A DNA stretch of 64,000 nucleotides from assembly GCF_000002985.6 (NCBI RefSeq), contig NC_003280.10, forward strand, positions 7,684,501 to 7,748,500. Reading direction: 5' to 3'. The notes below the pieces were generated by a model. That model had not been told where the DNA came from and made no database searches. It saw nothing but the letters and a program-made list of their open reading frames with translations. How positions within the stretch are numbered: the stretch's first letter is position 1; every line of letters starts with the position of its first letter. A program made the translations under genes and the position numbers. Shown piece by piece: positions 27,547 to 64,000 of the stretch. Source of the DNA: Caenorhabditis elegans. Taxonomy: Eukaryota; Nematoda; Chromadorea; Rhabditida; Rhabditidae.

Positions 27547-30500
27547 CTATAGAGATGAGTCTTGTGTTGATCCTCCACTTGATTCCAACGTGCTCAGTTC
27601 TACACGGGGGAACTTCATCTGAAAAATCAGTTTTTAGTTAGGAACTTGGAATTTCGGAAATTGGCGTAATTATTTGAAAAAAAAAACAAACCCTTGCTAA
27701 TCCTCTCTCTTTTAGCCTTCGTTGGTATTGCTCTCTGCTTGTTTGAAGTACTGAGTGACATCTCTCGGGAACTCGAACTGTTAAACTTCCTCTCATTATT
27801 TCCACATCAAGATATTCTGAAATTAAAAAAAATTAACTTAATAATACACCGTGTTTAAACTCATACGTGTATCACTTCCTCTTCTGTCTTGCCGGGGTCT
27901 AGGTGAAAGATCCGGTGGTAGAATTAAATTAGGCATAAGGCTAGGGATCTCAATTCCGACACTCGGTCTTTTATTTGCCAAATCAAAGTCAAATTCAGTC
28001 GGCTTATCAGGAATTAATGACGAACTATGAAACAGAGGAGACCGGCAAACCTGAACAAAATTAAGTTGGGACATTACTCGATTTCTTAAAAAAAAAACCT
28101 GAATTGGCGGTTTTGCAGCAATATTTGCATTATGCATATACTGTACCATGTGTTGGGGTACATGACGAAGAGCTGTCTCAGCAATGCGCGATTTATTGAG
28201 CCACGGTGCTTCTGCTCCATTGAGCAAGGATTTCAGATGAATGAATTGAACAACATCTCGGCGTCCATCTTTTCGTTTTGAGCATAGTTTTTGTAGTGAA
28301 GAAAAATCAAAGTCACCCATCCCAATGATCAGAATAGATAATGGAGCATCTGATGCGGAGTTCAAAGCTTGTTGAATTTCCTAAAATAATTACTTTTAGA
28401 TATCGTTGATCTTTTGATCTTCTTCAAAATACTCACTTTCAAATCAGTTACTTCTCCTCTTGTGAAGAGCGCTAAAACATGATAATGAAGTCCCCGGAAT
28501 CCTGATCTATGAGACATTCTCGTTACATAATTTATCACAGGCGATAGTTTTGATTCTTTTAATGGGGTAACCATTGTCTGTGTTTTCCGGTATGCTTCCA
28601 TTACTCCATCTAATCCACGACAAATTGGATCCATTGAAAAGTTCTGAAAATGAAGGTTATGAAAATGAATCGGATGATAAATCTTACCAAGAAAAATTCA
28701 TTTGATTCATGGAATGTTGGAGGTATTTTCGCACCGATTCCAAAAGCAGCGAACAATCGATTTCTGAAAAATTGATGTTTTTTCTAACAATGTAAAGTGG
28801 AATCAATAGGATTCGGGTATTAAGGTTTCGTCTAGATCGCAAAATACTTACGGTGTATAATCTCTAATAATTGAGCCAATTGCTCGAATGGCCATATGTA
28901 GCTCTCCATCAAATCTTCTTTGATCAAGCTCATGGACTGGTTCTGGACTCGAAAAATCTACACCAATTTCAAAATGAAGTTGTGTTCTGAAAATATTATT
29001 TAAAACATTCCCTTTGCACTTAAATGATAATACTTACCCACTGACAATATAATCCAAGAAAGAATAAAATGAGACATCTGTGAATTTGACTAGTTCCATT
29101 TTTCCACTGTTTTCATAACTCTGAAGTAGGTCATAATAAGTAAATAAATAAAAAGATATTCACAACTTCAAACCTTTTTCTGTGCTTTCTTTACATCGTT
29201 GATCACGCTATACACATTATCCGACCCAGGTCCATATTTCATTTTGGCATAAGTTGTTAAAAACTTTCCTATATACCCTTCTTTTCCATCAACATCTTTG
29301 TACATTACCCAAATTTCCAAAAGTCTGTTTCTGTTATCTGCAGCGTCTTGTGTGTCCAATCGGAATTCAGCCCATTGTGGATGAGAATGGTTTTTCAGAG
29401 CTTCACTTTCATATAGGAAAACTAGCGAATCATCGTCTTTTCCTTCTTCTAATCGGAAGACCTGAAATTCATCAATTTCTTGTTAGAAAATATTTTGAAA
29501 AATGCCTATGTTGATATTTTATTTAAAAAAAAAACTCACTCTAAAGAAAACGGCAGTTTCATCCCATAGAAAATCCTTACGATCCAAAGATTTTCCATGA
29601 AATTGCACTACAATTGGCTGTTCTTTTTCTGGCATTTCAGCAGAAACAATGATTCCACCCAAATATTCGTCTGTGACTCTCTGTGTTCCAGACAGTGCAG
29701 ATGCAATATTTCCATTCTTTTCAAGCTGTCGTCGAAGTTGCAATCCAAATGAACCAATAAGTTCATCAACCTTGAAAATCGAAGTTGCAAGAATATCTCT
29801 GCTTGAACTGGATGGTTTATCACGATCATGACATCGAGAGAAAACTGCTTTGATTAACTGAGTTTTCTCGAAAACGTATTGATATGAGAATTTATCAGTG
29901 AAGACAATATTTCGAGAGAATCGATGAGGAGAACTTGTTCCAACTTTGCTCCATTTGTCTTCACATTCTGTTTCATTATCGTAGAGCTCACAGGTTATTT
30001 GAGTGGCAGTTTCGGTTGTGGCGAAGTCACTAAAAATGAGAATATACTTTTTTAATTTTTTTTCTACTAAAAAAAAATTTTCATAAAACTAATGAAAATG
30101 TCTATTACTGGATTTGAAAACAAACTTACTGTATTGTAATGGAGATCTCTATAGTATTTGACATTGCGTGCTTTGAGCTCGTGCAACTCGGCGTCACACT
30201 GATTCTCGGCGATACCCGAACACCGGCAATCGACTGCGATCTTCTGAAAAATAAACGAGATTTGGATTGTCGGTGGATATATTTAGGTCTCTAGGGAGCG
30301 ATTCTTTTTGCCTTGCCACTAGGAGTGAGAAAAATGAGACTAAACAGAAAACAAGAATGACGTGGCAAAAGGGATGATACTCATGGAATTCGATGTGCAT
30401 ATGTGTGTATGTACATGTGACAACTATTTCATCAACTCTCAGTAGAATGTACATAAAATGAAGAGATTGAAAGAAACACAATACAATGAGATTTGACGGG

Positions 30501-40402: not shown

Positions 40403-43400
40403 ATGAACGACTACGAAATTCGAGACTTAACCGGGTCTTCTCAAAAGTCAAATAACCAGAAGATATCCAACAATTCTGGTGAAAGTGCTCATTTTAATGG
40501 AACTTCAGAAAACGTTAAAACTGAATCAGATGACGATTCGACGTGTTCTTCTTCATTAAATAAATTATCAAATCGTCACTCAGAACCAATGAACCACTTG
40601 AGTGTAGGCGGTTTTGTGGCAAAAGATTTACTTTCCTCTCTGACTATTCCCTTGCCGCAAACAGTTATTCGCACCTGTCAAAGCATTGATATTGATACTC
40701 CTGATCGATCGAGAAATGACAAAACTCTGACTTCTTTCTTCTATTCATCCTGTAAAAATCTTCTCCTTACTACTATAATTCCTGATCCACTGGACCTTGT
40801 GGCTGCGGCGGTCGGTCAATCGACCGCCCAAGCACTTTTAGTTGCACAGGTAATGCTTACTTTTGAAATTCCAATCAATTATATCCCTTTTCCGTTTTAC
40901 GTGCTCTCTTTCTTCGTTTCTCTTTATTTTTCTTCGCCACTTGAACATGTGTACAATCTTAGAGGCTTCATCTTCTCCAAAAGACATGATAACCTCTTGT
41001 TGCACACTGTTTGGCTATCGATTTTTTAGGCTGGTGATATTCATAACTATAACTGAATGAAAAATATTTTTCTAGTTAAATTTTAAGCCTATAAAAAGGC
41101 TTTCTCAATTTTTGATATACTTAGGTTCTGAGAAGGGATAAGTTAAGTTGAAATAGCTGAACAATGCTTTCTGAGTAAAGTCTTATTTTTTTAAACTCCT
41201 ACCATAATATCTAAAAAATGAAAAAAAAATGTGTTCCTAAAATGGTTCAAGTTAATTTTCTCTTTATTATAATTAACTTTCACTAAAAATAAATCATAGT
41301 TTTTCAAATCTAGAACGATAAACTTTGTATGTACGTAAATTTTTGTATTTTTAGGAACTTTCACAAGTATCTCTAATTTTAATAACTAATACAAATTAAG
41401 AATATGTCTTTGATATAATTAATTTTTACTGTTCAACTAACACTGTTTTGTCCTTGTCTCATTTTCGATCAGATATTTCAGATCGGTTGGATGGTTTGTG
41501 TATGTTGTCGTTGTTGTCTATGTAAATGTATAGCAAATGGACGAGGGGTTCGTGGACAAAAGAAACAAATCCAAGAACCCACAATTGCTGATGATGATGG
41601 ACGTGATTTGCCATACGAAGTACCAGGTTCCATTCATATACCAAAACCTGTGTACAATAAAAAGCTATCCAAATCACGATCATCATCTGTCCCACATGTA
41701 TCTGTGCCGTCACTTGTCTCGTCTAGCGCTGATTACAAGCGATTATCAATGTGGGAAACATCGTTGAATGTTGAAAGTGATGTCGAACCGTTGCACACGC
41801 CGCCACTCGTTGTGGGACGGAAACTTGACTATATCGACAAAGAAGGCAATAATCCAAGTTGTTGTAGAGAAAGAGGAACGCGCAAACCTGGCTTCAGACC
41901 GCTGAGAGGATCGGGATCACCGCCACCACCGTGAGTATTTTAAACAATTCCTTTATGAGCTAGATTGTAGAAATCTATCAAAGTTCGAGATATATATTTC
42001 AAAATTTGGAAAAATAAAGAAATTATAGTTGAAACTCTTTTTCGTTTAATAGACTAGCTTATTGATAGTTAATAATTTTAGTGACCCATCAACTTCGACG
42101 AAAGTCGCTGTTACCTCAGCATCAGAAGTCAAGAAGATCAAAGATCACAAGAAGCAGTTAAAAAAGGAGAAAGAGAAAAAGAAGAAGATGGATAAAAAGC
42201 AATCATCGAGTGGAGGAGGATTCTTCACACGATGGTTCGGAGGTTCGGGCAGTAATAACAGTCAACAGAATCTCGCAGAAGATGTGATCGATGCGCGAAG
42301 CGAACGAAAAACCGCGAAACAACGCGAACAGGAGTTATTGCAACGATCTGAAAGAAGATCCGGGGTACGGTTTATTTAATTTATTACTTATGCACTTTAA
42401 ATTATAAATTGTGAAAAATCAGCAATTGCCTTTCTTTTTTGAAAAAAGCAGGGTGTTTTTAAAACGTTCAAAAATGTTTTATAATTTTCAAAAGCTGACA
42501 ATATTTTTTTTTCTAACTGATTGTGAGCACTGAAAATATAACCATTAAGATTTTGAACGTTTCAGGGAAGAACACACTCCCATGAGGAGTATCGTCGTCA
42601 TCAACAACCAAGCTTAATGGTAAATACGAATTTTGATGAGGACGACTATGCAACGATTGATCGAGTTCGCAGATCCAATAATCGAGAAAGTGAGTTTTTT
42701 CATCTGAAATTTTATTTCCAATCCATTAAACTACAGTGTCAATGCCAGCCTCTCCAAGAAATGTACACTTTGTGGATGAAACATCAGGACCATTAAGCCG
42801 TACAATGAACGAATCTGCATTTGGAGATCGCGCTCATTTACAGTATCGACCACGTGCACAAAAAGGAGCCGCGGGTCCCACCACTCGTGGAGCTCCAACT
42901 TCATCTGTTAATCAATTGGACGAAGCCACACTGGATTTACTCCGTCTGTCCACGGAGCCAAGTCCTGTGCCAAGTAGAAGAGCGTTACCAAAATCAGCGT
43001 CTTTGAGCTCAGTTCAGCAAAAACAACCAATTAAAACAGCTGATGGAGGTCAATTGAAGATTGGAAGTGTGTATACGTGGGATCAGAATAGTGTAGATAC
43101 GACCACTGATGATGAGCGTGCAAAAGATTTCCTAAGGGGCGACAGATCAAGTCGGCTCTCTCCACAATCTGAAAGAAAAAATGAGAGACGTAAGTTTTTT
43201 TGAAAGCTAATCATAAACAGCCAAGTTATTTAAAATACTGAAAAATATATGAATTAAAATTCTCATTTAAACACTTTTGAATTTTTAACGGTTGTTTCTA
43301 TGCTGATCCAATTATTAAATTTTGAAAATTGCAGAAATTCAAATTCGACAACAAAGTAGTGGACCTACAAACCGTCGTGAAACAGAAATTGAGTACGAAG

Positions 43401-46400
43401 AAAAACGACAAGGACCTCCAGTTGTAAGTTGAATATTAAAATTATCTTTATTCGTATTTACTTTGTAGGTTCGTACGACGGTCGAAGGAAAGCTTAAAAT
43501 GGAAAAAATCGTCGGAGCCGACTTGATTACTGTAGATAGTTGCATTTCAAGTGCATGGACAGTACGAGATACTGTCACAAATTATAAGGTAAGATTGATG
43601 AGGCAATTATAAATATTTTAAAACTGATTTTAGATCAAATCCACAATAGGAAAAAAGAGTTTGATCCTGGAAGAAATTAAAGACGGCCAATCAAAATACA
43701 AGGTATTTATTAAATATATAATAGAAAAATTACAAAAATTCTATTATTAGATAACTCTTATCGAAAATGGAGAAACAAAAATGGAACGAGAAGCTAGTTT
43801 GGATGTTCCTGATTTTGTTGTAAGTTGACAGTATTCGTGTCAAAAAAATCCTATTTTAATTTTAGAACAAGAAAGATTACCTTGCTGAAGTGAGCAAAAA
43901 GCTGCTTAGCGATTTGCGTGAAGATTCTGAATCAGTATCGGCTCTTACACACATTGAAGTTGAAATTGTTGAAGATGTTACAAATATTCTGAAAACCTAC
44001 GTAATCGGAGAACGTGCTGATGATGTTCTAGCCGAGGAGCAATTGAGACTTCATTACGAACAAACTGCTGACAAGACACCTTCACCAATTCCTCTTGAAA
44101 AAGTTGAGAAGATTTATGTGGATGAACTGCAAAAAGACAAGATCGAACTTGAGGATCCAGAGAAAGCAGATATTCATTTGATTAAGGATGGACGTCACTT
44201 TGAAGGTGAAGGTGCTTTGAAGAGAATTAGAAGATTTGAAACTGAAGAAAGTATTGAAAAGCCTACAGTAATCCGAATGGAACCAAGATGTGCACATGCA
44301 TTTGCTGATTGTGATGTTGCAAAGAAGGATGATACATCTAACTATACAGTTAAGATTGCTGTTCCACTAGTCCACACTATCACATTCTTGTTGAAAAAAT
44401 CAAAGATGATGAGACAACAAAAAGCTGCTGGTTATGAAATGGAACAAGAAGGACAGAGATTTGAAGATGAGACTACGTTGAGAAGAATCAAGAGATACGA
44501 GACTGAAGAGGAAGAGGAGAAACAGCATGTAGCTGTTATCCAACACGTAGAAGAAGTCAAAGTTGCAACAATGAAAACTCAACGAGAAGTTGAAGCAGAA
44601 GGTGGACAATACGAAATGTCACAAGAAGGTATTCATCTTCGTGGTGAGACTACTTTCAAAAAACGTGGAAAACATCTTGATTCTGAGTCATCTGAAGAAA
44701 GATTCATGGAACGAGAAGCAGAAGGAGGACAGTATGCAATGCAAATGGAAGGAGAAAGACTGCTTGGAGAGAAGAAGTTTAGAAGTAAGGGACGTCATTA
44801 TGAATCTGAATCTGAAGAATCAATGGCTTCATGGAATGGTGGATCACCAACATTGGTTGATTTAGTCAAGAAAGAGTCTTCTTCGATCTTTGAAGCCACG
44901 TTTGAAACTGCTAATAACCATTCTCCAATTGTAGCTGAGGTTAGAAGACCAAAGTTGAAGAAAGAAAACACTACAATTGGATGTACTATTTCAAATCAGA
45001 AAGCAACTTCAGCAAACGCAGAATTGACAACTAAACATGTCAACACTGAAAAGGGATCTGGAAAGTTCCGTGAACTTGGAGAAGAACAAGCAATGATGCT
45101 TTGTGGATTTGAAAATCAAAAGAGTTCCAAAGAAGAAGTCACCGGATCTCGTCAACAAAAGAACGAAATCAAAGTTGCATTTGCTGCGGGATCAGCTGAA
45201 ACTGAAAATACCACAATCTCGACTACAATCTTCCATGATGCTGACTCATTTGCTGTTGAAGGATCTTCAAAATCTGCCAACTCAACTGCCACTTACGGAC
45301 GATTCAAAGAAATGTCAGAAGAGAATGCTTCAAACATGGTTTATCTTCAGAAGAGTGAAAGTTCAAGCTCTAATTTGAGTGGAGCAGAAACTAAGATGAA
45401 GGTGAGTTATACAGTCATACAGTCATAGTCATATGTATATGTATAGTCTATATTATAGTATATAGTATAGTATATGTATAGTCATATGTAGTTATACAGT
45501 CATAAACAAAAAGTTGAGAATTTTCAGCATATACAACGCCAATCATCTGAAGCTCGTTTCTCCGAATTCAAACAAGTAGCCGAAAGCTGTGCAGTCATGA
45601 TCAAAAATACTGGAGTTGAACGTGGATCGACATCTTCAACTGTCGCAGAAGCGGCAACTGGTTAGTTTATTTGGTTATCTCCTGGCCTTAGAAGCTCCCC
45701 TGAGATTTCCCCGCACATGATTGTTTTGCGTGATTTTGATATCCCCCACATATCCAATGTTTATGCACACTTTCCACCCTTAAAAGCACAAAAAAGCACA
45801 CACACCAACCACCATCATCTCCATGCACCGAGCACGCGCAAGCTCACTAAGAACACACCATGACCAAATTTTAGATACGTAAAATCGTTCGTAACTTCTC
45901 GTAAAGGCGTCGCGCGACCAGACATTGCCGCACAGTACTGTAAGTTAGAAGCGTTCCCTTGCAATCGCGCATAACAAAATCCCCACAACTTATTGTTGTC
46001 TCAAGATCTTCGAATTCGTCGCAAGGATGCTAAAGGCGAGATCATCGTGTTCGTGCTCTTCAAGAGAGTATTTGGCAACTACGTTCACGCCTCCATGCGA
46101 CTTGCTTCATCTGGTAGTGGGCTCCTTCGGGAGAACCGGTCAGAACTACGGGAGATGCGTTCCGAAGAGAAGAGAAGCAACAGTATGCATCATGAAGAAT
46201 CTCACTATGCTCATAGTTCATATGAGCATACAAGTGAGCATTATTCACAATCATCGTTCTATCATCAAGGTAAGTCGACTCTCTTAGTGTCTCCCGCTCG
46301 TTGCATCCGCTTGTCCGTGTCGGCTATTTCCTAAAAACTGTGAGAATATTTTGGAGCCGTGAGTGATTAAAAGAGAGATACAGTGACTGTGAGAAACTTG

Positions 46401-49400
46401 AACTCCCCAAAATGACATGGCACCAGGTACCCAGAATTTCGGAATTTCTTACAGAGTCCAGTAGCAGCGTCAGATCCAGTTCGATATACATTGAGCTGGG
46501 TGACGATATGGAGATAATTTGTGAACATAATACTAAACAAGCCATTTTAGTCTACTAAGTATCCAATGTCCACAGTACTGTTCTCTGATTTTTTCTATGT
46601 TCAAATCCAGTAGTGAATGAGTAGAGAGGGGCTCACATTGTCAAAGTTGTTTCTAAAAATTAAAAATCATAATTTTTGTCTCTGTAAGTCCCAAACAATT
46701 CTAACGTTTACTCTAACTTTCGTGCCTGGTTGCCTTTCTTAGTTTTAGTCATACTAGTGCGTGAGGAATGGATAGGTTTTGTCTAAAATAGACTAAAAAA
46801 AGTTTTTTTTGCTTCTTACCACAATCTTTATTCACAATTTTTGAGTTTCTTTCTGAAAGAATTTTTGAATGTTTAAATAAATGGTGGCTATTAGCCAGTG
46901 AATAAAGTCGACCTACATTCCAGAGAGTGATGAGCACGGCTTAGAGCCGGACCAGCAGGTTTCTAAGCAGTTGAGCAGTATCGAAAGACAGCTTTTGAAA
47001 CTAGATGAAGTCGTTATCGGAAATGAATGTACCGATGTCGTCGAGGTGAAAGTGACCATTAAGAAAAGGGAACAAAATGCCAATCAATTGATTGTTGTAC
47101 TTGAGGAGTTATTGGAAACTGCAATTTGTGGAGGAATACGAGAAATTAAGAGATCTATCGTAGATACTTCACTTGAAAGTCGAGTGAGAAAACTTGAACA
47201 AAGTTCGTTATATTCTATCATTAAAAAATCATCATCAAAAGAATCAGTTGTTCATTGTGGTAAACCACCACTCGAAAGACAAGCAAGTCTTGAAGGAAGA
47301 TTCCGAATGGAAGAAAGTTGGTCAGCAGTTGAATGTAAACGACGTTCATCTTCCATTGATCGTGCATCTCTGAAACTTAGAGCTTCACAAGAAGAAGTTT
47401 GTACTGGATTCTGGAACACTTCGAAGGGAGAAAGCACACGAAGAACAATTCTGCAAAAGACAAAAAGTGTCGAGAGTATGTGTTTGAAAACAAAGTCAGC
47501 TTCTTCAACATCTATTGACATGTTTTCTGATTGTCAACGAGCTACAGTAAGCCAAACAATATCAACCGAAATTGCTTCTCATAGAAGAGAAATTGTTGCA
47601 GCTGCTTTCGGAATTTCAACACAGTCCCTAGAACGTCTTCTGAAATTTGTGGAAATTATAGATTGGGAGAATATTACTATGAATGTCTCCCAAAAAGAAC
47701 AATTGTCAGCTAACTTGCAAGCTCTAACCAGTGCTCCAGTAAACTTAGACATTCCGAGTGATTTGGGAAGAATTGTTGCTCCAGCAGAACAAGACGCCTA
47801 CTCTGACCTAATAATGAGAGAACGTGCAGAGTCTAGAGTATTCGCTCAGTTGAGAGCATCTGCAGATGAAATTACCATTCGTGAGGTGGCATTGGGATCG
47901 ATGAGTCAGTTAGAGCAGGCTGCATTTATGAGTCTTCTTATTACAAGTGTCTCCAGATGTGATTTGAGAACAATTGCACCGAGTAATATTATTGCAAACA
48001 CCGAAATTTTCTATGATGTTGCTGAGGAGAAAATGAGTGTTAGTGGAGTTATGAAACGAGAATCAAGAAAAGAACATAGCTCAAAGAAGTTCACATCTTC
48101 AAGAGAAGAAATTATTCAAGGATTCTGGAAGGGAGAAAGAGATGAAGAACGAGTTGTGAAAACATTGAAAGATAGAATGGTAAGCTTCAAGCATTCTCTT
48201 AGTGTTGAAGCTGCTTCCTCTACATCGGAAAATGTTTCACTGGGAATGAGAAAGGCCGATCAAAAATCAGAATTTACGATTTCTCAAAAACTTTCTCCAA
48301 AAGAAATTGTTTCTGAAGCTTATGGAGTATCTGAAAGCAAATTGGATCAATTCTTTCAAGTTATGGAGAAAATGGATTGGAGTAACATCGAACTTGGTGA
48401 AAAAGAACACACGGCCCTTTCAGCCAATATTAGAACACTGGCGCCTGAACAGAAAGTTTGTGATGGAATTCTTGGAAAGCTCAAAGCTCCGAAACAACAG
48501 GATGAGTCAGTTGGAACACAAATACAGGAAATTAGAAGAGCAACAGCTGTTATGTCAGTTCGAGCATCACTTCTGTTGACTATTTCCAGTAATTCCAATT
48601 TTTCCAAAAATATTTCAGACTCTGAAAAAGCAGTGTTCTCTAATCTTATCAGTGTGATTACTTCTCACAATTTGTCAACTATTGGAACATCATCTGAAAC
48701 TACAACAGCTTCTATCAGCTACCAAGATATTCCTGAAATGCTTGCAGCTTCCAAACTTTGGATTTCAAGAAATTCTGAGAAATTGAAAAAAGAAATTCGC
48801 GAACCCGTCATTCAAACAGTTGAATCGTTCTGGAATACAACTAATGATCAAGAAAAGGTCGCTGTATTATTGAACGAAAAGATTGATTCGATTTACAGTT
48901 CTCTCAATACATTAGCTGCAAGCATGGAAAATGAAATAATTTCTCAAGAATTAGTTAGACACACTGAAAATGCTGGAAAGGTTAACATTAAGCCGATCAG
49001 TCCAAGAGAACTTGTATCTTCTTCATTTAAAATTACAAGCAGCGATCTTCAACAATTTTTCAATGTATTGGAGAAAATGGATTGGAGTCAAATCAGTTTA
49101 CCTGCTCAAGAGCATGCAATTATTTCAAAGAATGTCAGAAGCCTTGCTCCGTCGGCATCTGAGTTATCCAACATTTTAGGAAAACTCAGAGCTCCTGAAA
49201 TGCAAGAAGAGACAACAGACTTAAAGATTCGTCAAGCTCAGCAAGCACGTGTAGTTCTAAATGTAAGTGAGAGTATGAGTAATACAATCAGCTCTTCTGA
49301 AACTTTTTCAAGAATTCCTGAAAACAAAAAAGCTACGCTTACCAATCTTGTGGGAATCATCACAACTCAAGATTTGAGCACACTTGGAGCTTCATCTGAA

Positions 49401-52400
49401 AATCAAACGATTGAAATGGACTACACCGAGGCAAAAGAAGAATTGGAAGCTAGCAAGAAACTAGTAGACAAAAATCTATCTGTATTGAAAACAGAAATTC
49501 GTGAAAGCGGAGATGAAGTTGTGCAAGGATTCTGGAATACAGCTTCAGATAAAGAAAAAGTTGGAGCAATCATTTGTGAGAAGCTCAAGAGCATTCATCA
49601 CACTCTTCATACCCATGCGATCAGAACTGTAACTGAAAGCCTCAGCACAGATATTCAAAAAGAACAACAAAAACTGTCTACACATCACTTTGTAAAATTA
49701 TCGACAAGAGACGTTGTTCAGGCAGCATTCCGTATTTCCTCCGAATCGGTAGATCATCTTCTGACATTGGTTGAAAAAATGGATTGGAGTAAAATTGATC
49801 TTGTCGAACCAGTTTATTCAAATATTTCATCAAATGTACAAGCACTTGCAACATCTTCGTCACAATCATCAGGAATTCTTGGCAAGCTGTTACCTCCAGC
49901 ACCGGAAGAAGAAACTACTTCCAAAGAAATACGCGAAATTAACACGGCTAAATGCATTCTGAATGTTATTTCATCTTTAAACTCTACAATCACATCAGAT
50001 GCCTCATTGGATATGATTTCAGAAAGTGAACAAGCCATTTTCTCCAATATCATCGGAGTGATGGCATCAAATAATCTCACAACATCTTCTCAGTCAACAA
50101 GTTCATCTTTCGGATTTAATAATGTTTTTGAACTATCTGAAGCCAGGCGTGTTCTACAGGAATCTAACAAGCAGAATCTGATCCAAAAAGTTCGAGAATC
50201 TTCAGAAGAACTCATTCATGGAATTTGGAGTACTGCTTCTGAAACGGAAAAAGTGGCTATTGTTGTCAAAGAGAAACTGGAAACAGTTCACCAAGCAATG
50301 AAAACATTAGCAATTCAAATGGCTACACAATCAGTTAACTCGGAATTAATTGGATCTGAGGGAAATCTTGCATCTATCAAAAGTATTACTCTGCCAACTC
50401 GGGAAGTCATAAGTGCCGCATTTGGTATTTCCAATGAAGTTATTCAAAAAATGTTGGAAGTTCTTACGAAAGGGGAGTGGAGCACAATTTCTCTTCCACA
50501 AAGTGAGTATGAATCAATTTCCCAAAATGTTCGTGCACTCGCTGAGCCATCTTTTAACTGTGACAGTATTTTGGGTAAGATCAATGCGCCAGGACCACAA
50601 ACAGAAACAACCAGTCATGAATTAATCGAAAAAAATACAGCAGCAGCTGTTGCTAATGTGAAAGCTGCTGTGGAATCAGTCATCTCGAAGGAGTCATCAT
50701 TGGCAAAACTACCAGCCGACGAAAAAGCAATTATTACAAACTTGGCCGGATTGGTTCTTTCTAAAGATGTCTCTTCATTGTGTACCAGTTCAGAAACATT
50801 TGGATTTGATCAGAGAATATTCCGCAATCAAAATGCCAATATTTCTCTGGGAGCTGTGAGATCGGAAACACTCTTGCAAAGACTACGAGAACCAATAGAA
50901 AACCAGGTACAAGGATTCTGGAGTACAGCTTCAAATCAAGAAAAGGCTTCATTTATTGCAAAGCAGAAACTGGATACCATGTATGACACAATGAAAGTGA
51001 TCGCGATCCAAATGATTTCTCAAACAATAGATGGAGACTTCTCAAGTGCCAGTATTAGTTCCGAGACTTTCAAAAATATTGATAAAGCTGCAAGAGAAGT
51101 GGTTGCTGCTGAATTTGGAATTGCAAATGAAAGTGTTCAAAAGGCATTGGAAGTTTTGAACAAAGTTGAATGGAGTGACATCTCTCTACCAGAAAAACTG
51201 CATCAGAATATTTCAAGTAATGTGAGAGTTCTTGCGGACTCGTCATATAACTGTGACAGTATTATTGGAAAACTGAATGCACCTGAGCCCCAGTCTGCTT
51301 ATGTAGATCAACAGATTTCGGAACACCAGACGTTGGAAGTTATTGCTAATATCAAATCAGCTGTGTCGTCTGTCATATCAAATGATTCAGTTTTGTCAAA
51401 ACGATCAGAAGATGAGAAAGCCGTGATCTCAAACATTGCCAATTTGATTATCTCATGTGATTTGGCATCAATGAGCAGTACATCCAATTCATTTGAGTTT
51501 CAACGAGATATTCTTGAACCTCAAAATGCTAATGTTCTACTTGGAACTCCAGCGTCCCAGGTATTTACCAGAAACCTTCAAGAGCCTATTCAATCAGAAG
51601 TTCAAGGTTTTTGGAGTACCAACTCCTCACAGGAAAAGGCTTCGCTTGTTATTAGGCAAAAATTGAATGTTAAATATGATGCAATGAAAATGATGGCAAC
51701 CGAAATAGCTTATCAATCATTAAATTCAAATATTACATCAGAAGAAACCAACTTGGAGTCCCAGAAAAGTTTCGATAAATCAATCAGAGAATCAATTATG
51801 GCATCATTTGGAGTCTCTAGTGAACATGTTCAGAAAACATTAGAGATTCTCTCCAAATCTGAATTGAGCACAATTGTTTTACCGGCTGTTGAATATGAAG
51901 CGACAGTACAAAATATCAAAGCGCTTTCGGAACCAAACTTCAACTGTGAAAGTATCCTAGGAAAACTTAATGCACCAGATCCACAATCAGCAGTAATGGA
52001 CATAATTATGAACGAACAAAGAAAATTAACAGTTGTCTCCAACATACAGTCAGCCATTGAATCGGTAATTTCGAATGACTCATCTCTTGAAAAACTTACG
52101 GAAGTTGATAAATCTGTGATTCTTAAAATATCTGAAATTATCGTTTCTCATGATTTGACTGCACTGAGCAGTAGCTGTTCAGATTTCAATCTGCTTCAAG
52201 AATCAAATACTCAAGAAAAAGCAGACATATTCTTAAAAACTCCAAATTCTCAAATGCTCATTGAACGTCTCCGCGAGCCAATCGAAAAGCAAGTACAAGG
52301 ATTCTGGAGTACTGCAAGCAATTCTGAAAAGCAAGAAATGTTCCTGAAAGAAAAAGTTGAAACAATTCATGCAATGCTTCAAACATTCTCAGCTTCTCTG

Positions 52401-55400
52401 GTTAGTGAAACAGTTCAAAGAGATTTTATGGCAACTGTACAGAGCCTTGCTGCTCTTCGTTCAATCCAATTGACACCTCGAGAAATTTTATGTGCAGCAT
52501 TTGGAATATCAAATGAACAAATCGAACAAACATTCCGCGGTCTCGATGAAGTTGACTGGAGTCATATAGATATTCCGTGTGCACTCAGAGATAATTTGTT
52601 AGTCAATCTGAGAATTGTAAATGCTGATGCTCCAAATGTGTTTGGAAATTTGATCAGTCGTCCAGATGAAAACCAAGAAACGTCTACGGTTCTTGAAGAA
52701 AAAAATCGCATTCAATTCTTACTAAATCTCCAGAGAAGTTTAGATCAAACGGTACAAATGACGTCTTCGCTTACGCGATCAGATGAGAGAATCGAAGTTA
52801 AAGTTTCCAATATAATCTCTTTGATTTCTTCCGAAAATCTTGGAGATCTGATATCACAAGCCGTTCAACTTGCTCAACCAAATATGTCTGATGAGACAGA
52901 AAAATCATTTGAAATTCCAAGAAACATCCTTCTTAACAGAGTTGTGCCAGAAACATCGGAAGAATCGATTCAATCATTCTGGAAGACATCTCAACTTGCT
53001 GAAGAAGCTTCGTCAACTATTTCTGAAAAGCTATCAATGTTGCAATCAGAATTTGTAGTCTCTGCTGCAAAACAAGTTAGTACATCTCTCACATTGGATT
53101 ACCGGCGAAAGATTTTCAATCAAAATTCGGAAATTATATTCGGTGATCTGACAAGAGATGTCGTCAAGGCGGCTTTCTCAGTATCAGACGAAACATTAAA
53201 TACATTATTCTCGCAATTGGAGCAATCGGATTGGAGTCAGATCAAGTTATCTTCCAAGCAAAAATCTATATTATCTGCTAACATAAAATCTCTCGCAACA
53301 TCTAATCTAGACACCCTCATTGGACAACTGATGCCAAGAGAAGCAGATTCGGAGCAGAGTGAAGCTTCATTGTCTGAACGAAGCAGTGTAGAAATGGAGA
53401 ACACTTTCAAAATTCAACAAATTATTTTTGATACAGTTGTACGAAAGTTTGGATCCGATGAAGAAAGGGCATCAATAATAAATCTCATTGGTCTGCTGAC
53501 TTCTGTTAATTTGAAGGCAGCTATCCAAGTTGCTTCTTTTGAAAGACTACCTGATTCACTCGATTCTACAGCTTCAATCACTCCAGTCTTCAAGATTCAA
53601 GAACATGTCCGTCAGCCGACTGAACAGGTTGTTCAAGGATTCTGGTCAAAGGAAAGACATCCAAATGAAACCGTGGAAGTTGTGAATAGAAAAATTGAGG
53701 TGCTGAAGAGTATTTTGAATTGTTATGCTGTTGCTGAATGCCATAAGAGTTTGGAGAGAAGCCTGGAGAAGCCTTCTCAGCAAGATGAAACTTGTGCGAC
53801 CCGAGGAGTTACAGAAGTTGTTCAGAATGCGTTTGCTGTAACGGAACAATCGTATTCCAAGATTCTGAAGGTTTTAGGATCAATGCAAAACTTTGAAATA
53901 CCAGAAGCAGTAAAAGAAACCATTTCAAAAAATTTGAAAATTCTGAATTTGCCACCAGTCGACACATTATTGGTATCAAAATATAAAGAATCACATGTCA
54001 GCAAGACAGTCGAAGAACAAGAATTGGTTCAGTTCATGTTTAATTTCAAATCGGCACTCAATTCTGAAATTGAAATGTCACAAAATGTTTCAAAATGCAT
54101 TGAAGAGGAAACAGTCGTTCTTCCCAACCTTGTAGCTATTTTAGCTTCTGCGAATCTTGCTACAATTGTTCCTACTGAGAGCAGACAACTTTCCGATTCA
54201 GAAAATATTCTCAATTTCTCGATACAACACGAAGAATCCGAGCGATCAGCTGCCACAGTCCGTGATGAAATAAACATTCTAAGGCATTATCTGCAAACAT
54301 TTGCCATTCAAAAGGCATCTTCAGAAGTGAGCAGAGTAATAGAAATCATTAAAACTTCTCAAAGTTTCCATTTGGTTCACACGACAATGCTTGAAGAAAT
54401 TAAGACTATTCAACTTCGGATGGAAGTTCTCAAGAGAGTTTCAATGAATCAGTCAACTGCTGAAGAATTACTTCAAGAGGCGTTCCAAAATAGTGAACAA
54501 CAAATGGAAACATTCCAAAGAATTGTGCAAAATGTTCATTGGGAAGAAACAAAGCTTACAGAGGAAATCATCAGAAATTTGAGAATTAATATGACTGCGA
54601 TTCCAAGATTCGAAAGCACAGTAGGAAGCTTGAAGGCTCCCGATGATCAACACGAGTCTGCAGATTCATACATTTCATCAACAAGACGAGCAGAAGCTGT
54701 TATAAATTTGATGGCAGCAGCTGATAACGCTATTTCAACATCATCCACCTTATCAATGATGGAATCGGATGAACGTCTTCTTCATAAAACTATTCTGAAA
54801 ACGATGGCTGTTTGTAATCTGACAACTCCTGCTTCAAGATCTGAAACAGAAACAATGACTCAAGGATTCTATCAGAAAGTGGAGCAGTGTCAAACAGAAC
54901 AAGAATTAGCTGAACGACCTAAAATAAATTGTGAAATGAAAGTACTTGAAATTTCTGATGACGAAGTTCATGGTATCTGGTCAAGTCGTAAAGAGCAAGA
55001 ATCATCACAAAAGATTCTTTTGGCAAGTGAACTTGAAAAAGCAACACTTCAAACATTGGCAAGTGGCGATGAAACGAATTCCATTTATACGGAACTTGCA
55101 TCATTCGGTACCCGAGAAGAAATTGAGAAGTTGGTTTCTATCGAGCTTCGTGATATTGTAGAAAAAAGTTTTGGAGTATCAGAGGAAAGTTTAAACAAAC
55201 TTCTTAATTTGATTCCAAAAATGGATTGGAGCAGTTTGACGATGCCAATTGTCCAAAAAGAATTGGTTATCAAAAATCTGGCATTGCTTTTACCTGCCGA
55301 GGCTCTAATCATGGAATCGGTTGGCACGATTCAGGCACCACCAGAAGAGGAAGCATTCGCAGAGTTGGATTTGAAACAAGCAAGAGAAGCAAAAGTTATG

Positions 55401-58400
55401 ATGGATATTCAGGAATGCGTATTCACAACATGTACAGGATACACTGAAATGAATAAACCAGATGATGCTGAAATTACCACATTCTCTGCTCTTCTTGGTA
55501 CTCTGTCAATCTGTGATCTCGTGACAATGGCCTCTTCAAATATTCAAGTTGACAGTAAATATGACTACTATAGACGGCCAGCTCCAAAAAATGCAGAGAC
55601 TACATTCACAGAATCCAATGCAGATGCATTTTCATTGGCTCTTCAAGAAGCTGGTGAGGTTACATCTTCTGGTATTTGGAGTACGGTTTCAAACTCAGAT
55701 GCTGCAAAAACTACAGTTTCTGACAAGTTGATTTCTATTTCTAAAACCGAAATGTCTATGAAGGCAGTCAGTGAAAACGCTGTAAATCAGGATCACTCTT
55801 TGAAGAAAGATTCCATCGAAGCAGTAGAGATGAACATTCCGGATTCGCGAAAAGAAATTCTTCAGAAAAACTATTCAATTGATCGATCAAACTCTACTGT
55901 TGAAATGCAAGGAGCAATTGCATCGGAAGACATTGCAATTCAATATTCAGCTCCTCGAGTTGACAATGTTTCTCAAACAATGAGATCACAGAGTCAAAAA
56001 GATTTATTATTTGGAGGAAGTTTCGGAGAACTCGAACCACCACTTCCACAAGAAGAAGACGTGGAAACAACTGCTCGTCAGAGCAGAGTGTATAGATCCT
56101 CAAGTCAAGTTCGTGCTCCATCAGAAGAATCCATTCAGAAAACTGAAGCGTTGAGAAGATCAGAGTCGTTGGAATCAAATGCTAGAAAAACTTTTGTGGA
56201 TAGAAGACGAGAAAACGTTTCGCTAAGTCGAAAGGCATCCGTTGAAAGAGAGACAAACATGGAAGCTCGTGTTGCAAAAGCTGATCAATCCATTCCAGTC
56301 GAGACTCTTCAAAAATCCAAAAAGCAGGAGTCAATATTTTCTTCAGTTGTTGAATCGAAGGATTTGAATGTATGTGGAAGCTGGACAACAGCTAAACCAC
56401 CAATTGGTGCAAAGGTTTCCCTTCAAACTAAAAAAGTAGAAAAAGAGGTCACTTCAGCCACGATGACGGTAGCTAGTGCTAGTGTTGAGTGTGAAGTAGG
56501 ACTAGAGAGTAAGAGAGAGCAAAGTCGTGATGCTACAGGCTCAATGGTTCGTGCAAAGAGTATCGAGGAAGTGGAAAGAGAGTTCGGAGTGGAAGTTACA
56601 TCAACAGAGAAAACTCTTGAAAAGAGGGATCAGATCGAATCATGGATTAAGAGTATTCCTCAGAGATTGGAAGTTGAAGAAAGTGCAGAATTTGGAAACG
56701 ATGAAGTAATAATTGGAGGTGTAATGGGAAGTCTGGAAGCTCCACTCGAACAAGAAGAAGAAACAGAGAAATTGTTGACTATGAAGAGAAGTGCCAGTGA
56801 AGCTAGAAGCTTGAAAGCTGCTACTAAAGAATCAATTGAAGAGGCAGATGAATTCAGTAAAATTGAAGCTGACCAAGAAATTCTTACAGTTCAAAAAGAA
56901 CTTGTGAAAGCAACTGGAATTTTAAATGCTGCTGCATCCAGAGAAATCAATGCAAGTTCAAAAATGGAATATTCAAAGGTTCCGTCGGAAGATGTTATTG
57001 AATTGAGTTTGACAGAATCACGACGTCAATCAAATTCTGGACAGTTCAAAGAAACAAAAGAAGAAGAGATCGTTGGTCTTTGGAATACTGGAACAAAAGG
57101 AGAAAATGCTTCGAAAGTTCTCCCACACAAGCCACCAATTGATACCGCTTCGATGAAGGCAAAAGCTGCAAAACAAAACTCAATTGAGATGACAGGAAGT
57201 CTTCAAAAGTCACCGTCAGCTGAAGCAATGGGAATTGTCTCCCAAAAGGTCACGGAAGGTGCAAATAGTAAATTTGGAATTGCTCAGGGAGCTGTCGAAA
57301 CAACTCTGACGGCTTCTGCTCAATCTGGAGTTACATGTCGTGATATTAGTGTCTCAAATATTGGAGTGGCTTCAGAAACAGTCACACAGTTCTCAAATAA
57401 GGAAACTGGAATTGGATTCGGTGCTTCAAATTTGATTGCTCCTCCTCCAGAATCGGCTGAAACGGAATTCACCGGAAAAATATCGAACCTTTCACAGACA
57501 TCACTTAACAAAATGGCAGCTAGTGATGTGGGAACTACAGTTGAATCAAAAATTCAAGCTCCTGGAGATAACTATGGAGATGTGTCTCTTCTACAAAAAG
57601 TTGCATCTTCTGATGCAATTACAAAAGCAATGCAAGCGTCTAGAGATTCAGCCATAAGTGTTGATTTCAGACAAGACCGAGAAACAGTTTCCGCTGAAAA
57701 GAGTGACTTAAATTTCAAATCTACAAATTCGGAAACTCAAAAACTTAAACTTTTTGAAAGTAAAGAAGAGGAGAGTGGTATTTTCATCCGGTCTAGTCAC
57801 GAATATGAAGAAACTCAAAAGACTTTGAGACATCGTAGTGCTTCCCGAGAATCTGCTAGTCGTACTGTAACTGCCCCAACTAACCAGGAAGTTCAGATGA
57901 ACTTTGACAAAAAAGTTGAAGATTCTGTAGCTGAAGGCTCATTGAGCATAGGAATTGTGAGAGAGTCGTCGCAAAGTGAGGTGATGCAACACGCCGAACG
58001 GACAAGCGAACTGACTAAACTTTCAATGAATGAAGAAGTTGCAGGAGTTCGGGCTGTTAGTGAAACAACTAATGAAACATTCAGAGGATATCAACAAGGA
58101 GATGTTGAAGTTCAGACTGGAGCTGCTATGGGAAGAATTGAAGCACCAAGGCCACAAAGAGGAGAGGCTGAGATAACTCAGAAATTGAGAAGAACATTGA
58201 GTGTCGAAAGAAGTGCTAAGGCTAGTGAAATGGCTGAATCACAGACTGTTACTCAAATCCAAAAAAGAGAAGACTCTTTGGCATCTGAATATTCAGTTCG
58301 AGATACTCTTTTATTGAAATCTTCAAGTGTAAGTCATGTTGCAACTGAACAAATGTCCGAACATTTGGTCATGAGAAGCAAGAGTGAGCATCATATCAGT

Positions 58401-61400
58401 GAGAAGCTTCAAGAACGATTAATTGAGAAAGAATCATTCAGTTCTCAAGAGTTTATTAGTGAGAATCAAGGAGTTCATACTCACTGGGATGTCATTGATA
58501 ACAATGGTGATGCTCTCATATGCTGGAAGTCTTCTGAAACTGAACAAAAATCATTGGATGCTAAGCAGGTTACTGAAGAATTGGCAGGAACAACTCTTGA
58601 CTTGTCAGTAAGATTACTTGGTGGAACGGATGAAGAGAAGATCGCAGAGCATGTGATCGTCGGAGCAAGTGAAGTTCTCAATATTTCTGAAACGAGAGCT
58701 GATATGGAAATGTCAAGACAAGATGCATTCTCTGATGATGCTACTTATGTTGCCTCAGATATTCTCGAAGAACGAAGTCTTTCAACCGTTCACGAATTTG
58801 GAGAATCAGAAGCATCTACAACATTCGGAGTTGGAAAGCTTGTTACGAAAAAGCCAGAAAAAGAAGAAGTTGGCCGAAGTTTCTCTGAAACACGGAAATT
58901 GTCTCAGTTCTCTGATATTACTGCCATTTCTGAAACTACTACTGATATGGATAGCGAGATTTTGAGACTTCCAGAATGTGATCAGAGTGTCACTTTAATT
59001 TCTCACAAGAATCAACAGAAGGATGTGAAAGATCTCAAAGCGACAGTGGAAAACACTGCTGATCAGGTTACGTTATTGGAGAAAAGAGAAGTTAGAGAAC
59101 AATCTGCTGATGTTAAGAAGGTGGAGAAAAGAAGCATAGTGGATGGCAAAAGACTTTCAGAGCCAAGAAATGAAAATGCATTGTCTCAATACACTTCAGA
59201 TATTGTTGATCTTGAGGAAAAAACAGTTGTTCCATTGACCAGGACAGACTCGACAAGTGTGATTCTGAAAGCTTCACAGACAAATCGAACAGATCGAGAA
59301 ATCAGTATTGATAGAGGAGAAGCAAATAGAATGACATCAAAGAATATAATTCAACGAGGAATGTCAAGAGCTTCCCGAGGAGCGTCGATTTCCAAATTCA
59401 AATGACCAAAATCCAGAAAAGCTATTGAAACGAGAAGATAGTTTTGATGAATCTGAATTTGTTACTTCAATGTCCTTGAGAAATGAAATAACTTCTGGAA
59501 CATTCAGAGAGTTCGGAGATGAAAGTGTTGAAGTATGCACTCTTTTCGGAAAAATTGTTCAGAAGAAGTTCGAAGTTGAAGATATTGAAGAAGTTCTTCC
59601 GATGATCCGAAGATGGGCTGAAATTTTGAGCATGAAAGCATCAACAAGTGTCGAAATTCAAGCTGAGAATAAATTATCTAAACCTGAAGCTCAAGCCGAA
59701 AGCCAGAAATATTTGAAAACTGCTAATCTGGAAATTAATAAGATCAATGTAAACGCCACTCACGAGGAAGTCATGTCAGCTACTACTGCCTTAGAATGCA
59801 AGACATCTGGACAAGATGTTGCTTCAATCCGACTTCGTGACAAATCAAGAGAACGTGTTGAAAAGAAATATCAAGAAAATCAATGGAACTTGTTGTCAAC
59901 AAATGCAGAATGGGAAACTCTCTTGAATGATCTTGAAGATTCTGTTACAATTGCTCAAAGTGTTCAAGATTCAATGGCATTCTCTGTTAAAGCTTCAGCG
60001 ACTGTTAACTTGAACAGCGACACTTCCATCAAAAAAGCTCAACCAGAAATTGGAATTCAAAAATCTATTTCTCAATCCAACGTTGAAAAAACTGTTGGAC
60101 AGTTCAGTAGTGCAACTATTGGAAATGAACTTCTGGTCACCAGACTTGGAATGGATTTGGAAGAAATTGAGACACTAGTTGATGAGATTAATCGAGAGCA
60201 AGCTGTTGGTGGCAGAATTCGAGAATTCGGAAAATCAGAAACTGGTGGAGGAATATATTTAGTCAGAAGAGCTTTACCTAAAGTCAAAGAAACTTCTACA
60301 CATACTGTGACCGTAGCAACAAGTTTCCGTCAAATCTTTTCAACGATGAGTGCCGGAGATGAAATCAGTGAAGCCAATGTTGAACTCACAATTCCAAGTA
60401 CTTCTGTCGGAGCTGAAATTAAGAGCACAGTGGCTAGAAGTGATTCGATGACATTCTCAACATCACATGCATCTGAATATACTGCTAGTACTGTAGCTGA
60501 CTATGCTCGTGATATTGCAGTATCAGCATCAACTGCAGCACGTAAGAAGGCGATTCCTACAGAAAGAACAAGTCAAAAGTTGAAAGAAGTTGGTGCAGAT
60601 GGAATTGAGATTCTTTCCCTTTGGGAAGGAATTGAAACTGATTTAGATGCAACAACTCAACTTGTTGATCTTCTTCGTGTCAAATCATCTCTTCAAACTA
60701 TTGAATCAAGTGAAGAAGTTGAGAGAATCAATCAATATTTAGAGATGCCAGAAGAAAAAGGACTAGTTATTCATCTGATAAATGTTCAAAATAAGGAAAC
60801 TTGTGAACGAAACTTTGCCGTTTCGATTTGCTCTTTGGATACTGTTCACTCTAGGAAATCTGAGATACCACCTACATATTCTGTGAGCAAAGTGTTGACC
60901 GAGAAGCGTGTACTTCGTGAGACGTGGCGAGTGATAGAGAGTGGTGATGTGCGATTCAACGCTGTCATCAATTTGCATAGATACAGTTTATCGAAACCGA
61001 CACTGGCACAAGAGACGGTGCTTCGGGAGGTTGTACGAATTGCAGCTCAACCATTATTCATATCAGCAGGTGATATCGAAAGTGATGTTGTTTGGAGTAC
61101 CCATCAATTGGAGAAAACATTCGTGAGAGAAGAAATTGATAGAACCATCATTGGAGCAAGAAAAGGCGAAAATATCAAGAAGAAGTTTGAAGAAGCTGGT
61201 GATGAAAAAGTGAAGTTAAAGGTTGAACTGATTGGAGGAAATCTTCCAAACGAGATTTGCGATATTTCTTGGAAAATCCCAAGACTTGGAGGAAAGGTGA
61301 AGCTGGAAACCGAAGAGTTTGAGTTTGATGAGTGCTTGTTCTATGGTCAAATCAATTGCAAGCAGACAGATTTTGAAGATAAGGATATTGTTATAACAGT

Positions 61401-64000
61401 TCCACGTATCACTTCACTCAATCTATCGACTTTGGCTTCTAAAGAAGAATCGAAAGAAGTGCATGAAGCTTGGTCAATACCTGATCAATCTGAAAGTTCT
61501 GATAAATTAATCATCATTTCCAATATTGGAGAGCCAACCTACATGAGAACAAAAGAATCAAGTGAGGATATCGTTGGAGTTGGTATAGCCTATAATGTTC
61601 CAGAAGAGAATTTGATATCAGCTATCAAGCTTGATGAAAAAGCTTCAGGAGGATGTTATGAACTAACAACCAAAGCTGCCGGAGATGAATACAAAATGAT
61701 AAGCTCGATTCTTTCGAAAACTCAAGCTGTTGAAAAAGTTAAAGGGAAAATGATTCAGAAGGTGGTTGCAAAGGATGAAATTCGTGTTCTGGAGACTACA
61801 ACAGAGTCAGTGAATGCTAACTTCAACTACGAGATTCCGGAAGAAAACTTCAAGATTGGAATTGCAAAAACATGTGCAAACAATGCTGCTCCATTCACTA
61901 TGAGACTTCATGAATGCCTTGATTTCTATGTCAAAATGTTCTATAATATGAACAAGAAAGATGACTTTGAATCTCTTATCAAAACGATTATCATATCAAA
62001 TGGAATTGAATCAAAAACACTTTCTTGTACAGCTGCAGAGCATATTGAAGCAACTAGAAATCCAGAATTCAATCGACCAGCAGAATTCTCTGATATTCAA
62101 AAAACGGTTGTAGACTATAACAAGATTGAAGGTGCATCATTGAACACTTTTGAAGCTTTAAACGAGAAAATGGCATTATCAACAATGCTCAGTAGACAAG
62201 ACGACTATTCTCGTGTAGAACATATTGTCAAAGACAAGAATCGTGGAGCCAATCTAAAATTTAGATTTATCGAATCCAGTGAAGAGAAACAGACTACATT
62301 TAGTGCCTTTGAGATTGACACAGAAAAAGAGGAAATCGAACGAACGATTGATTTGGTTCGTCAGGGTGGACAATTCAAATTGTCGACCGACGCAGCCGAA
62401 GAGAACGAAATCACTTTGCACCGTGACATATCGAAGCCGATTATCACTCATTACGACACTTTGCACCTTATCACGCTTTCGAATTCTGCACCTCACCAAA
62501 TTTTGAGCACCTCTGGAGCATCAAATGAGCTTCATACTATCTCAACTCAACTGTCGAAACCGGCTGAATGGCTCAACACCGAACTGCTTATTGTCGACAA
62601 AAATGTTGAGCAACCTGTGACGTGGCGCGTGTTGGAGTGTGAAGAGTGTGTTGAGAATTTGCACCCGATCTACCGTAGACCTGACGACATTTTCGATTTA
62701 GATGAAATATGGCATATCGCGAGAAATGGTGGAAAGTTCGAACGACGATGCAAAGCAAGTGGCGACGAGAAGGAGATCTTTGAACAAGAAATCAAAAGTC
62801 GCGGAATTAAGGATGATATCATTGATAAGAAGTTTATTGTTGGAAATCAAGGTGAACCAACATCATTCACAACGATTCAAACATCTTCAGTGTCTGCATC
62901 GGTTTCTCAAGACATGAGCCGATTGGGAGAAAAAGAAGCAATCAAAAAGGTTCTTCAAAACTCTAATAAAGGTATCAATGTGGAGAAGAAGATGATTGAA
63001 GCTACTGAATACAGGGAGACTATTAGTGAGCAATTCAGAAAGAACGATGAGTTTGATAAAGCTGATCTCACTGTTAAGGACCGTCGTGCGGGAGGATCTT
63101 ATGAACTTTCAACAAATGCATCTGAACAAAGTTCTTCAAGCGTTTCAAATGAGCTCATTTGTCCTAGACCAAGTCAACTTTCAATTGAAAAGACATTCAT
63201 AACAGCTCAGACAATTATTCCTGCAATATTAAGCTGCAAAGCTTCTGAATCAATTGGACATACAATCTCAGAACAATGGAATCGTCCAAATGATCAATTT
63301 GCTATTTCACAGATTGTGAAGGATTGTAACAAAGAAAACGAGCAGTTTACATTCCGTGAAGCTGGGGAAGAATATCACACAACAAATTGCTTCTACACTC
63401 GAGAACAAGAAGAAAAGGTTATTGCTAAAACATTGCATGAAGCTAGAAAAGGAAGTGGACAGACTTTCGAGACTAAACATGCAACAGATAGATCAATGGA
63501 TGCTTCTCAACATCTTGAAAAGGATCGACTGGCCGAAGCAACTGCTGAGAAACTTTTCGTTATTGGAAATACCGCTGGACCAGTATCTTACAGCTCGAAA
63601 TCTTCTTCAGATATACAGCACAGTCAAGTTGTGAATCTGTCGCGGCCATCTCCATATGTTCAAGTTGAGATTATTAGGAAAGGAGCTAATCTTGGAACAC
63701 CCACCTACTTCCATGCTCGAGAAACAACGTCAAAAACCGAAAATGTGGCAACCCAGCTTAGCAGAAAAGAAGAGAAAATGGAAGTATCAACAACACATAC
63801 AACTCCATTGCTTGCTGAGCCAGTTACTTTTGATTCAAATGCTTCGAAATCTCATTCGACTAGTTTGGATAAAAATCTTGTAGCATCTGAAGACTATGAA
63901 CTTGATGCAGTTGTTATTATTGTTGATAATAACACCGAGCAACCACAATTCTTCCGTTGTTCATGCACCAAGGAAGCTTCAACATCTGCTGCCGCCGCCC
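40403..64000 (+). CDS. Giant tandem-repeat protein, 3' end outside the window, frame broken near 59390
   Basis: Exons: 40403-40849, 41482-41930, 42082-42364, 42566-42689, 42737-43189, 43335-43423, 43469-43588, 43634-43702, 43751-43819, 43866-45401, 45528-45660, 46006-46269 and 46924 to beyond 64000. All join in phase, giving 5505 residues to a TGA at 59403. From about 59350-59401 to the window end the +1 frame is open for about 1530 codons of the same style, so the TGA looks like a frame break. The N-terminal 150 residues are Ser-rich and end in a hydrophobic stretch running into a Cys cluster (GWMVCVCCRCCLCKC), suggesting membrane attachment. Lys-rich and GGG-rich disordered parts follow. 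Beta-sandwich-like segments (exons 7-9) come next, then acidic repeats with GGQYEM, and about 15 units of about 230 residues from 47400 to 58500. I do not recognise the repeat. From memory B0228.4 (cpna-2) is a candidate, because it neighbours B0495; no copine domain is visible inside the window. Confidence 0.8.
45425..45505. repeat. AT-rich short tandem repeat in an intron
   Basis: The intron between exons 10 and 11 of the giant gene consists largely of variants of ATAGTATA, CATATGTA and TACAGTCATA in tandem, ending just before the TTTTCAG acceptor. Confidence 0.6.
45875..45939 (+). other. Exon-like segment in intron 11 of the giant gene
   Basis: A CAAATTTTAG acceptor and a GTAAGT donor bracket 65 bp. 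One frame is open (YVKSFVTSRKGVARPDIAAQ), but joining it to the upstream exon 11 donor (one base left over) gives an immediate stop. It could belong to an isoform with another upstream exon, or trigger decay. Confidence 0.3.
46367..46550 (+). other. Coding-like segment in intron 12 of the giant gene, ends in a stop
   Basis: The plus frame reads DCEKLELPKMTWHQVPRIS and then SIYIELGDDMEIICEHNT, and stops at about 46550. It has protein-like composition, unlike the flanking intron. An ATACAG acceptor ends at 46383 but does not match the phase of exon 12. It could be an alternative terminal exon of a short isoform. Confidence 0.3.
47400..58520 (+). repeat. About 15 tandem coding units, period about 660-714 bp
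   Basis: Within the large exon, a Trp motif (QGFWSTAS or variant) recurs near 47406, 48120, 48827, 49525, 50218, 50911, 51604, 52300, 52974, 53635, 54970, 55668, 56375, 57078 and more degenerately 58485. One copy near 54300 is reduced. Between Trp motifs each central unit carries a REVVxAAFGISxE block, a block like MDWSxIxLP, and a block like SILGKLxAPxPQ. Units between about 48100 and 53600 are best conserved; later units diverge. Confidence 0.85.

Follow-up and report, generated by a model that had tools for sequence, protein, structure and literature searches.

Classical copines such as BONZAI 1 combine two C2 domains with a vWA/copine domain, plant RGLG proteins are RING ligases that likewise carry a vWA domain, and giant muscle proteins such as titin, obscurin/UNC-89, and twitchin are built from modular repeats. 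CPNA-1 of Caenorhabditis elegans represents a further layout, with an N-terminal transmembrane segment and a C-terminal copine domain. CPNA-1 occurs at M-lines and dense bodies and binds UNC-89 (PMC12812942); its gene has been equated with F31D5.3 (PMC12401492), and RNA interference (RNAi) of F31D5.3 results in muscle defects (PMC2694363). Here, we analyze a 64,000-nucleotide window of the C. elegans genome (contig C2:7684501-7748500), for which a preliminary description had proposed a single exon of more than 17 kb encoding a giant repeat protein. With moderate confidence, we read 46924..64000 as the central, nearly intronless part of an atypical copine-domain giant gene, very probably C. elegans cpna-2, in which a +1 break of the reading frame most likely reflects either a reference error or a real insertion or deletion (indel).

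Extent of the gene

Based on frame continuity and predicted exons, the whole gene spans ~27.5 kb of the + strand, from 40403 to 67928 in window-frame coordinates. Eleven upstream exons (40403..45660) begin with an ATG and join into 1,257 stop-free codons; at 46924, directly behind a 3' splice site (TTCCAG), this upstream part is carried on in frame; and nine downstream exons lead to the stop codon. Between these ends lie two overlapping stop-free frames on the + strand. Frame A (46902-59402) comprises 4,167 codons, a run expected by chance with a probability of ~1e-124 at an assumed guanine-plus-cytosine (GC) content of 0.38. Frame B (59350-65910) comprises 2,187 codons and extends past the window end. 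When frames A and B are joined with all predicted exons, the resulting protein has ~7,918 residues.

The proposal of a single exon is upheld in its long coding stretch and its 3' splice site at 46924, and the stretch is even longer than first stated, exceeding the window. It is not, however, one open frame, owing to the +1 shift between 59350 and 59402. Physically, it may be one exon of 18,986 nucleotides (46924-65909), though the reference does not read through. The preliminary description also covered the giant exon only, leaving the surrounding gene, with its membrane-like N-terminus and copine C-terminus, unnoticed.

The C-terminal copine domain and its relatives

The C-terminal 328 residues match the copine family PF07002 with an expectation value (E) of 3.4e-72 over 203 residues, spanning profile positions 2-217 of 218. 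The closest solved relatives are the vWA domains of RGLG1/2/5 (E 4e-67 to 6e-77, the latter over 246 residues), and the DxTxS, T, and D residues, which we take to be the metal site, align with RGLG5. The copine BONZAI 1 follows at E ~1e-20. Measured against solved structures, this domain from an animal gene lies much nearer the plant RGLG vWA domain than the BONZAI copine. Unlike the RGLG E3 ligases, the giant protein has no RING family match in the 328 C-terminal residues scanned. Classical copines share the vWA/copine domain, but the giant protein differs from them in its weaker match to the solved example and in lacking a C2 family match: neither the N-terminal 1,257 residues nor frame A nor frame B (1,549 residues in the window and 637 beyond) yielded one at E<=1. 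A C-terminal copine domain with no C2 family match is the layout of CPNA-1.

Copine matches elsewhere in the genome comprise at least the following: a locus at II:4.2 Mb, a second copine gene in this window, and four places on contig C4. We infer that the II:4.2 Mb locus is cpna-1. The two genes have the copine domain in common (208 query residues at 50% identity and another 45 at 48%), whereas the N-terminus, the 231-residue units, and the 40-residue repeats described below show no similarity at E<=1 to the 21.8 kb compared, beyond which the presumed cpna-1 gene may extend. Exons of the second copine gene in the window lie at 28117-28658 on the - strand, 12 kb upstream of the giant gene; it may be a classical copine, as nearby frames look C2-like by eye.

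The 231-residue unit

Frame A is dominated by a repeated unit, with an autocorrelation peak at 231 residues (z 11.6) in units 1-10. These ten strong units (residues 159-2467 of the frame A product, P0001; pairwise identity 15-45%) score 211-298 bits each against a profile built from those same ten. Five weaker units, 11-15, follow at residues 2468-3624, so the ~15 units of ~230 residues anticipated in the preliminary description are recovered by the profile. As for the periodic Trp noted there, one Trp column of the unit is conserved in 14 of 14 aligned units; this alignment, and the profile retrained on it, leave out unit 11. Beyond unit 15, the 14-unit profile detects a further degraded piece at residues 3955-4080 of frame A (23.3 bits versus at most 6.3 in shuffles, 96 of 100 scored). 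Local alignment, for which E values were computed without composition correction or masking, places residues 3380-4167 in register with earlier units (e.g., E 1.5e-17 against residues 1098-1839). The array probably reaches ~18 units.

It is improbable that the units are a diverged form of a known domain such as spectrin, plakin, Ig, or ankyrin. Frame A as a whole has no Pfam match at E<=1, and 11 units scanned singly gave only single-member matches scattered over 16 unrelated families (best E 0.0091). The unit has no profile match among PDB sequences below E 0.36, and Foldseek returned no matches to the unit model at E 0.001 or less. A profile check for Ig, spectrin, or plakin repeats, set beforehand as capable of overturning the idea of a new unit type, found none in the units, and the original claim that the unit matches no family stands, with nothing above chance in Pfam and no PDB sequence. 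Elsewhere in the genome, units 1-10 find nothing better than E 0.54.

The hydrophobic periodicity of the unit is helical (96-100 degrees). An AlphaFold2 model of two adjacent units, of modest confidence and based on six alignment rows, contains helices and no strands. Each unit has a core of ~120 residues, with block means of 56-84 that mostly exceed 70, and the cores are separated by low-confidence stretches. A second structural look, covering 627 aligned chains, yielded common helical arrangements only. As modeled, the units are best described as helical beads on flexible or helical linkers. Of the modular rod in the preliminary description, the modularity is retained, and the units are predicted to be helical; because of the low-confidence linkers, beads on a string fit the model better than a stiff rod. 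In size, modular repeats, and possibly a role as a muscle adhesion scaffold, the giant protein resembles titin, obscurin/UNC-89, and twitchin, but its units are predicted to be helical and have no Ig, Fn3, or kinase family match.

The frame break

The frame break raises the most pointed question about the locus. The repeat profile continues behind it: residues 20-160 of frame B match unit positions 83-222 with 19.6 bits (best shuffle 7.8, 97 of 100 scored), and the start of frame B aligns locally with the end of frame A at E 6e-12. The spacing of unit landmarks across the break is 295 nucleotides. Among 14 in-frame pairs, two neighboring pairs not being measurable, nine are spaced by 288 nucleotides, two by 285, and one each by 297, 258, and 255. 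The codon usage of frame A gives way directly to that of frame B, and this measure cannot place the exact switch point within the overlap. Since splice scores, GC content, codon usage, and unit spacing all disfavor an intron, the DNA is most likely read continuously across the break, and the reference most likely contains either a one-base error or a real indel. The original N2 reference contained ~1 error per 50,000 bp, including 152 exonic errors of 1-2 bp (PMC2978686), a rate that later corrections may have lowered.

A short intron flanked by weak splice sites would remove the break and leave two giant exons, a solution that we regard as somewhat unlikely. Frame-joining GT..AG pairs do exist (e.g., 59383 to 59508 and 59256 to 59369, scoring 10/17), and longer candidates of 247, 304, and 523 nucleotides reach 11, on a par with the weakest of the gene's 11 predicted introns. 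However, the candidates of 40-130 nucleotides score at chance level, given that 178 of 300 random places in frame A reach at least 10 and 87 of 300 at least 11, whereas the 11 predicted introns, chosen partly by motif, score 11-15. The GC content of the best candidates is 0.32-0.39, compared with 0.10-0.28 in 10 of the 11 introns. Removal of at least 40 nucleotides would leave at most 255 where the 14 pairs show 255-297, and codon usage switches frame with no gap for an intron to fill. The eleventh intron, with a GC content of 0.41, contains a candidate extra exon.

Alternatively, the frame A product (~5,400 residues) could end at TGA 59403, with frame B and the copine domain expressed from a separate promoter or transcript. 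The in-frame stop is present in the reference, and the candidate alternative exon upstream of 46924 hints at more than one promoter. We nonetheless judge this unlikely: the break interrupts a repeat unit, whose profile resumes behind it at the expected spacing, and there is no acceptor of at least 6/7 opening an exon in 59300-59562 and no donor of at least 8/10 in 57000-59402.

The frame change might also be genuine, with ribosomes passing it by programmed +1 frameshifting. Coding character is kept on both sides up to the overlap, and the downstream 2,187-codon frame and copine exons are intact. Reference errors were nevertheless common enough to account for the break (~1 in 50,000 bp originally; PMC2978686), and no known shift site was recognized by eye, no scan having been run. 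Frameshifting is accordingly very unlikely. Only a slender chance attaches to the more specific proposal that frameshifting in mid-unit yields two products from one mRNA, of ~5,400 residues without the copine end and ~7,900 residues with it; if true, recoding would act as a switch that determines if the docking domain is present on a muscle tether. Continuous reading across a reference error or indel is the interpretation adopted in what follows.

The N-terminal exons and the 40-residue repeat

The N-terminal 1,257 residues have no Pfam family match at E<=1. They include a hydrophobic, Cys-rich segment, LLVAQIGWMVCVCCRCCLC, at residues 145-163, where hydropathy peaks at 1.99. A further short repeat (GGQYEM..EG...GE..F....), seen by eye at 44446-44820 in an exon upstream of the giant exon, looks unlike both other repeat types. 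The 1.26-kb intron preceding the giant exon is rich in GC for this gene (0.41) and holds the candidate cassette or alternative first exon listed in Table 1.

At the other end of the array, the "more repeats" reported after the ~15 units are present but of a different type, 40 residues in length. Frame B contains 31 profile matches of this repeat, 23 of which form a tight array (residues 963-1884) with a super-period of 121. Frame B matched no Pfam family at its cut-off in the 1,549 residues within the window or the 637 beyond; the tail, outside both the window and the units, has one sub-threshold Ig_3 match of 32 residues (E 0.096).

Table 1. Features of the giant gene, in window-frame coordinates
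Feature	Position	Strand	Basis or remark
Eleven N-terminal exons, first six	40403-40849, 41482-41930, 42082-42364, 42566-42689, 42737-43189, 43335-43423	+	predicted
Eleven N-terminal exons, last five	43469-43588, 43634-43702, 43751-43819, 43866-45401, 45528-45660	+	predicted
Candidate cassette or alternative first exon	open frame 45975..46331	+	good 5' splice site after 46269, joins 46924 in frame
Giant frame A	46924..59402	+	units 1-15 and further degraded unit sequence; ends at TGA 59403-59405
Ten strong units	47376..54302	+	starts 47376, 48090, 48795, 49497, 50190, 50883, 51576, 52269, 52944, 53607
Units 11-15, degraded	54303..57773	+	56.0, 116.3, 38.1, 21.0, 25.4 bits; profile not built from them
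Frame overlap, +1 shift	59350..59402	+	inside unit ~18
Giant frame B in the window	59350..64000, on to 65909 outside	+	rest of unit ~18, then 40-residue repeats
Rest of unit ~18	59407-59829	+	231-residue unit profile in frame B
40-residue repeats	from ~61411; tight array ~62236 to 65001	+	profile, autocorrelation
Nine short exons outside the window	65963-67928	+	to stop at 67928; copine/vWA domain

Gene name and proposed role

Directly downstream of the giant gene, beyond the window, is a thioredoxin-like frame (ATWCGPCK) on the - strand, which we take to be trx-1 (B0228.5). Because of this neighbor, we take the giant gene to be B0228.4, cpna-2. A set of chromosome II mutations lists cpna-2 between F18A1.1 and C34C6.7 (PMC5345728), which fits the name without proving it. 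Null and nonsense cpna-2 alleles were used in complementation tests in the same paper, suggesting that cpna-2 may not be essential (PMC5345728). CPNA-2 also appears among muscle-enriched proteins (PMC8446793).

A modular muscle scaffold, as suggested in the preliminary description, is a plausible reading. It gains support from the C-terminal copine domain held in common with the presumed cpna-1 locus and, if the gene is cpna-2, from the reported muscle enrichment of CPNA-2. As to the layout of the protein, we lean toward a putative membrane-attached N-terminus followed by ~18 helical units of ~231 residues, the 40-residue array, and a C-terminal copine-type vWA domain. In such a protein, the N-terminus would be anchored in the muscle membrane, the repeats would act as a long flexible tether resembling beads on a string, and the vWA domain, as has been reported for CPNA-1, would dock on partners in the cytoskeleton or in adhesions. 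The protein may thereby scaffold or space the membrane and myofilament attachments.

Several points weigh against this picture. The gene model is derived from splice motifs and reading frame in the genomic DNA of one species, and, given the frame break, the copine end might come from another transcript. The name draws on the presumed trx-1 neighbor and the chromosome II gene lists of one paper, and the second copine gene 12 kb upstream could be its owner. The N-terminal membrane segment is a candidate marked by only a hydropathy peak. The two-unit AlphaFold2 model has a mean predicted local distance difference test score (pLDDT) of 58.6 and a predicted template modeling score (pTM) of 0.39, and the tail model, with a pLDDT of 32.4, is unusable. 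Lastly, RNAi of cpna-2 is reported to suppress a gut phenotype (P = 0.0371; PMC7782584), which speaks against a purely muscle role.

The window contains other long reading frames with Pfam matches, at 3684-5186, 12029-13531, 15653-17041, and 18877-20334. The first matches a receptor L domain, the second a DUF255 thioredoxin-like protein, the third a protein kinase, and the fourth an M28 peptidase, together with a weak match to the ERMP1 membrane domain.

The library searched provides no classification for this repeat type; the gene itself probably has a name already but has been little studied, cpna-2 being mentioned only in passing in the literature found. Within this very long coding region, either the reference is off by one base, which obscures the connection between the repeats and the copine domain, or recoding takes place. 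Among candidate muscle scaffolds in a model animal, the locus contributes a giant repeat-built protein whose unit type has no Pfam match.
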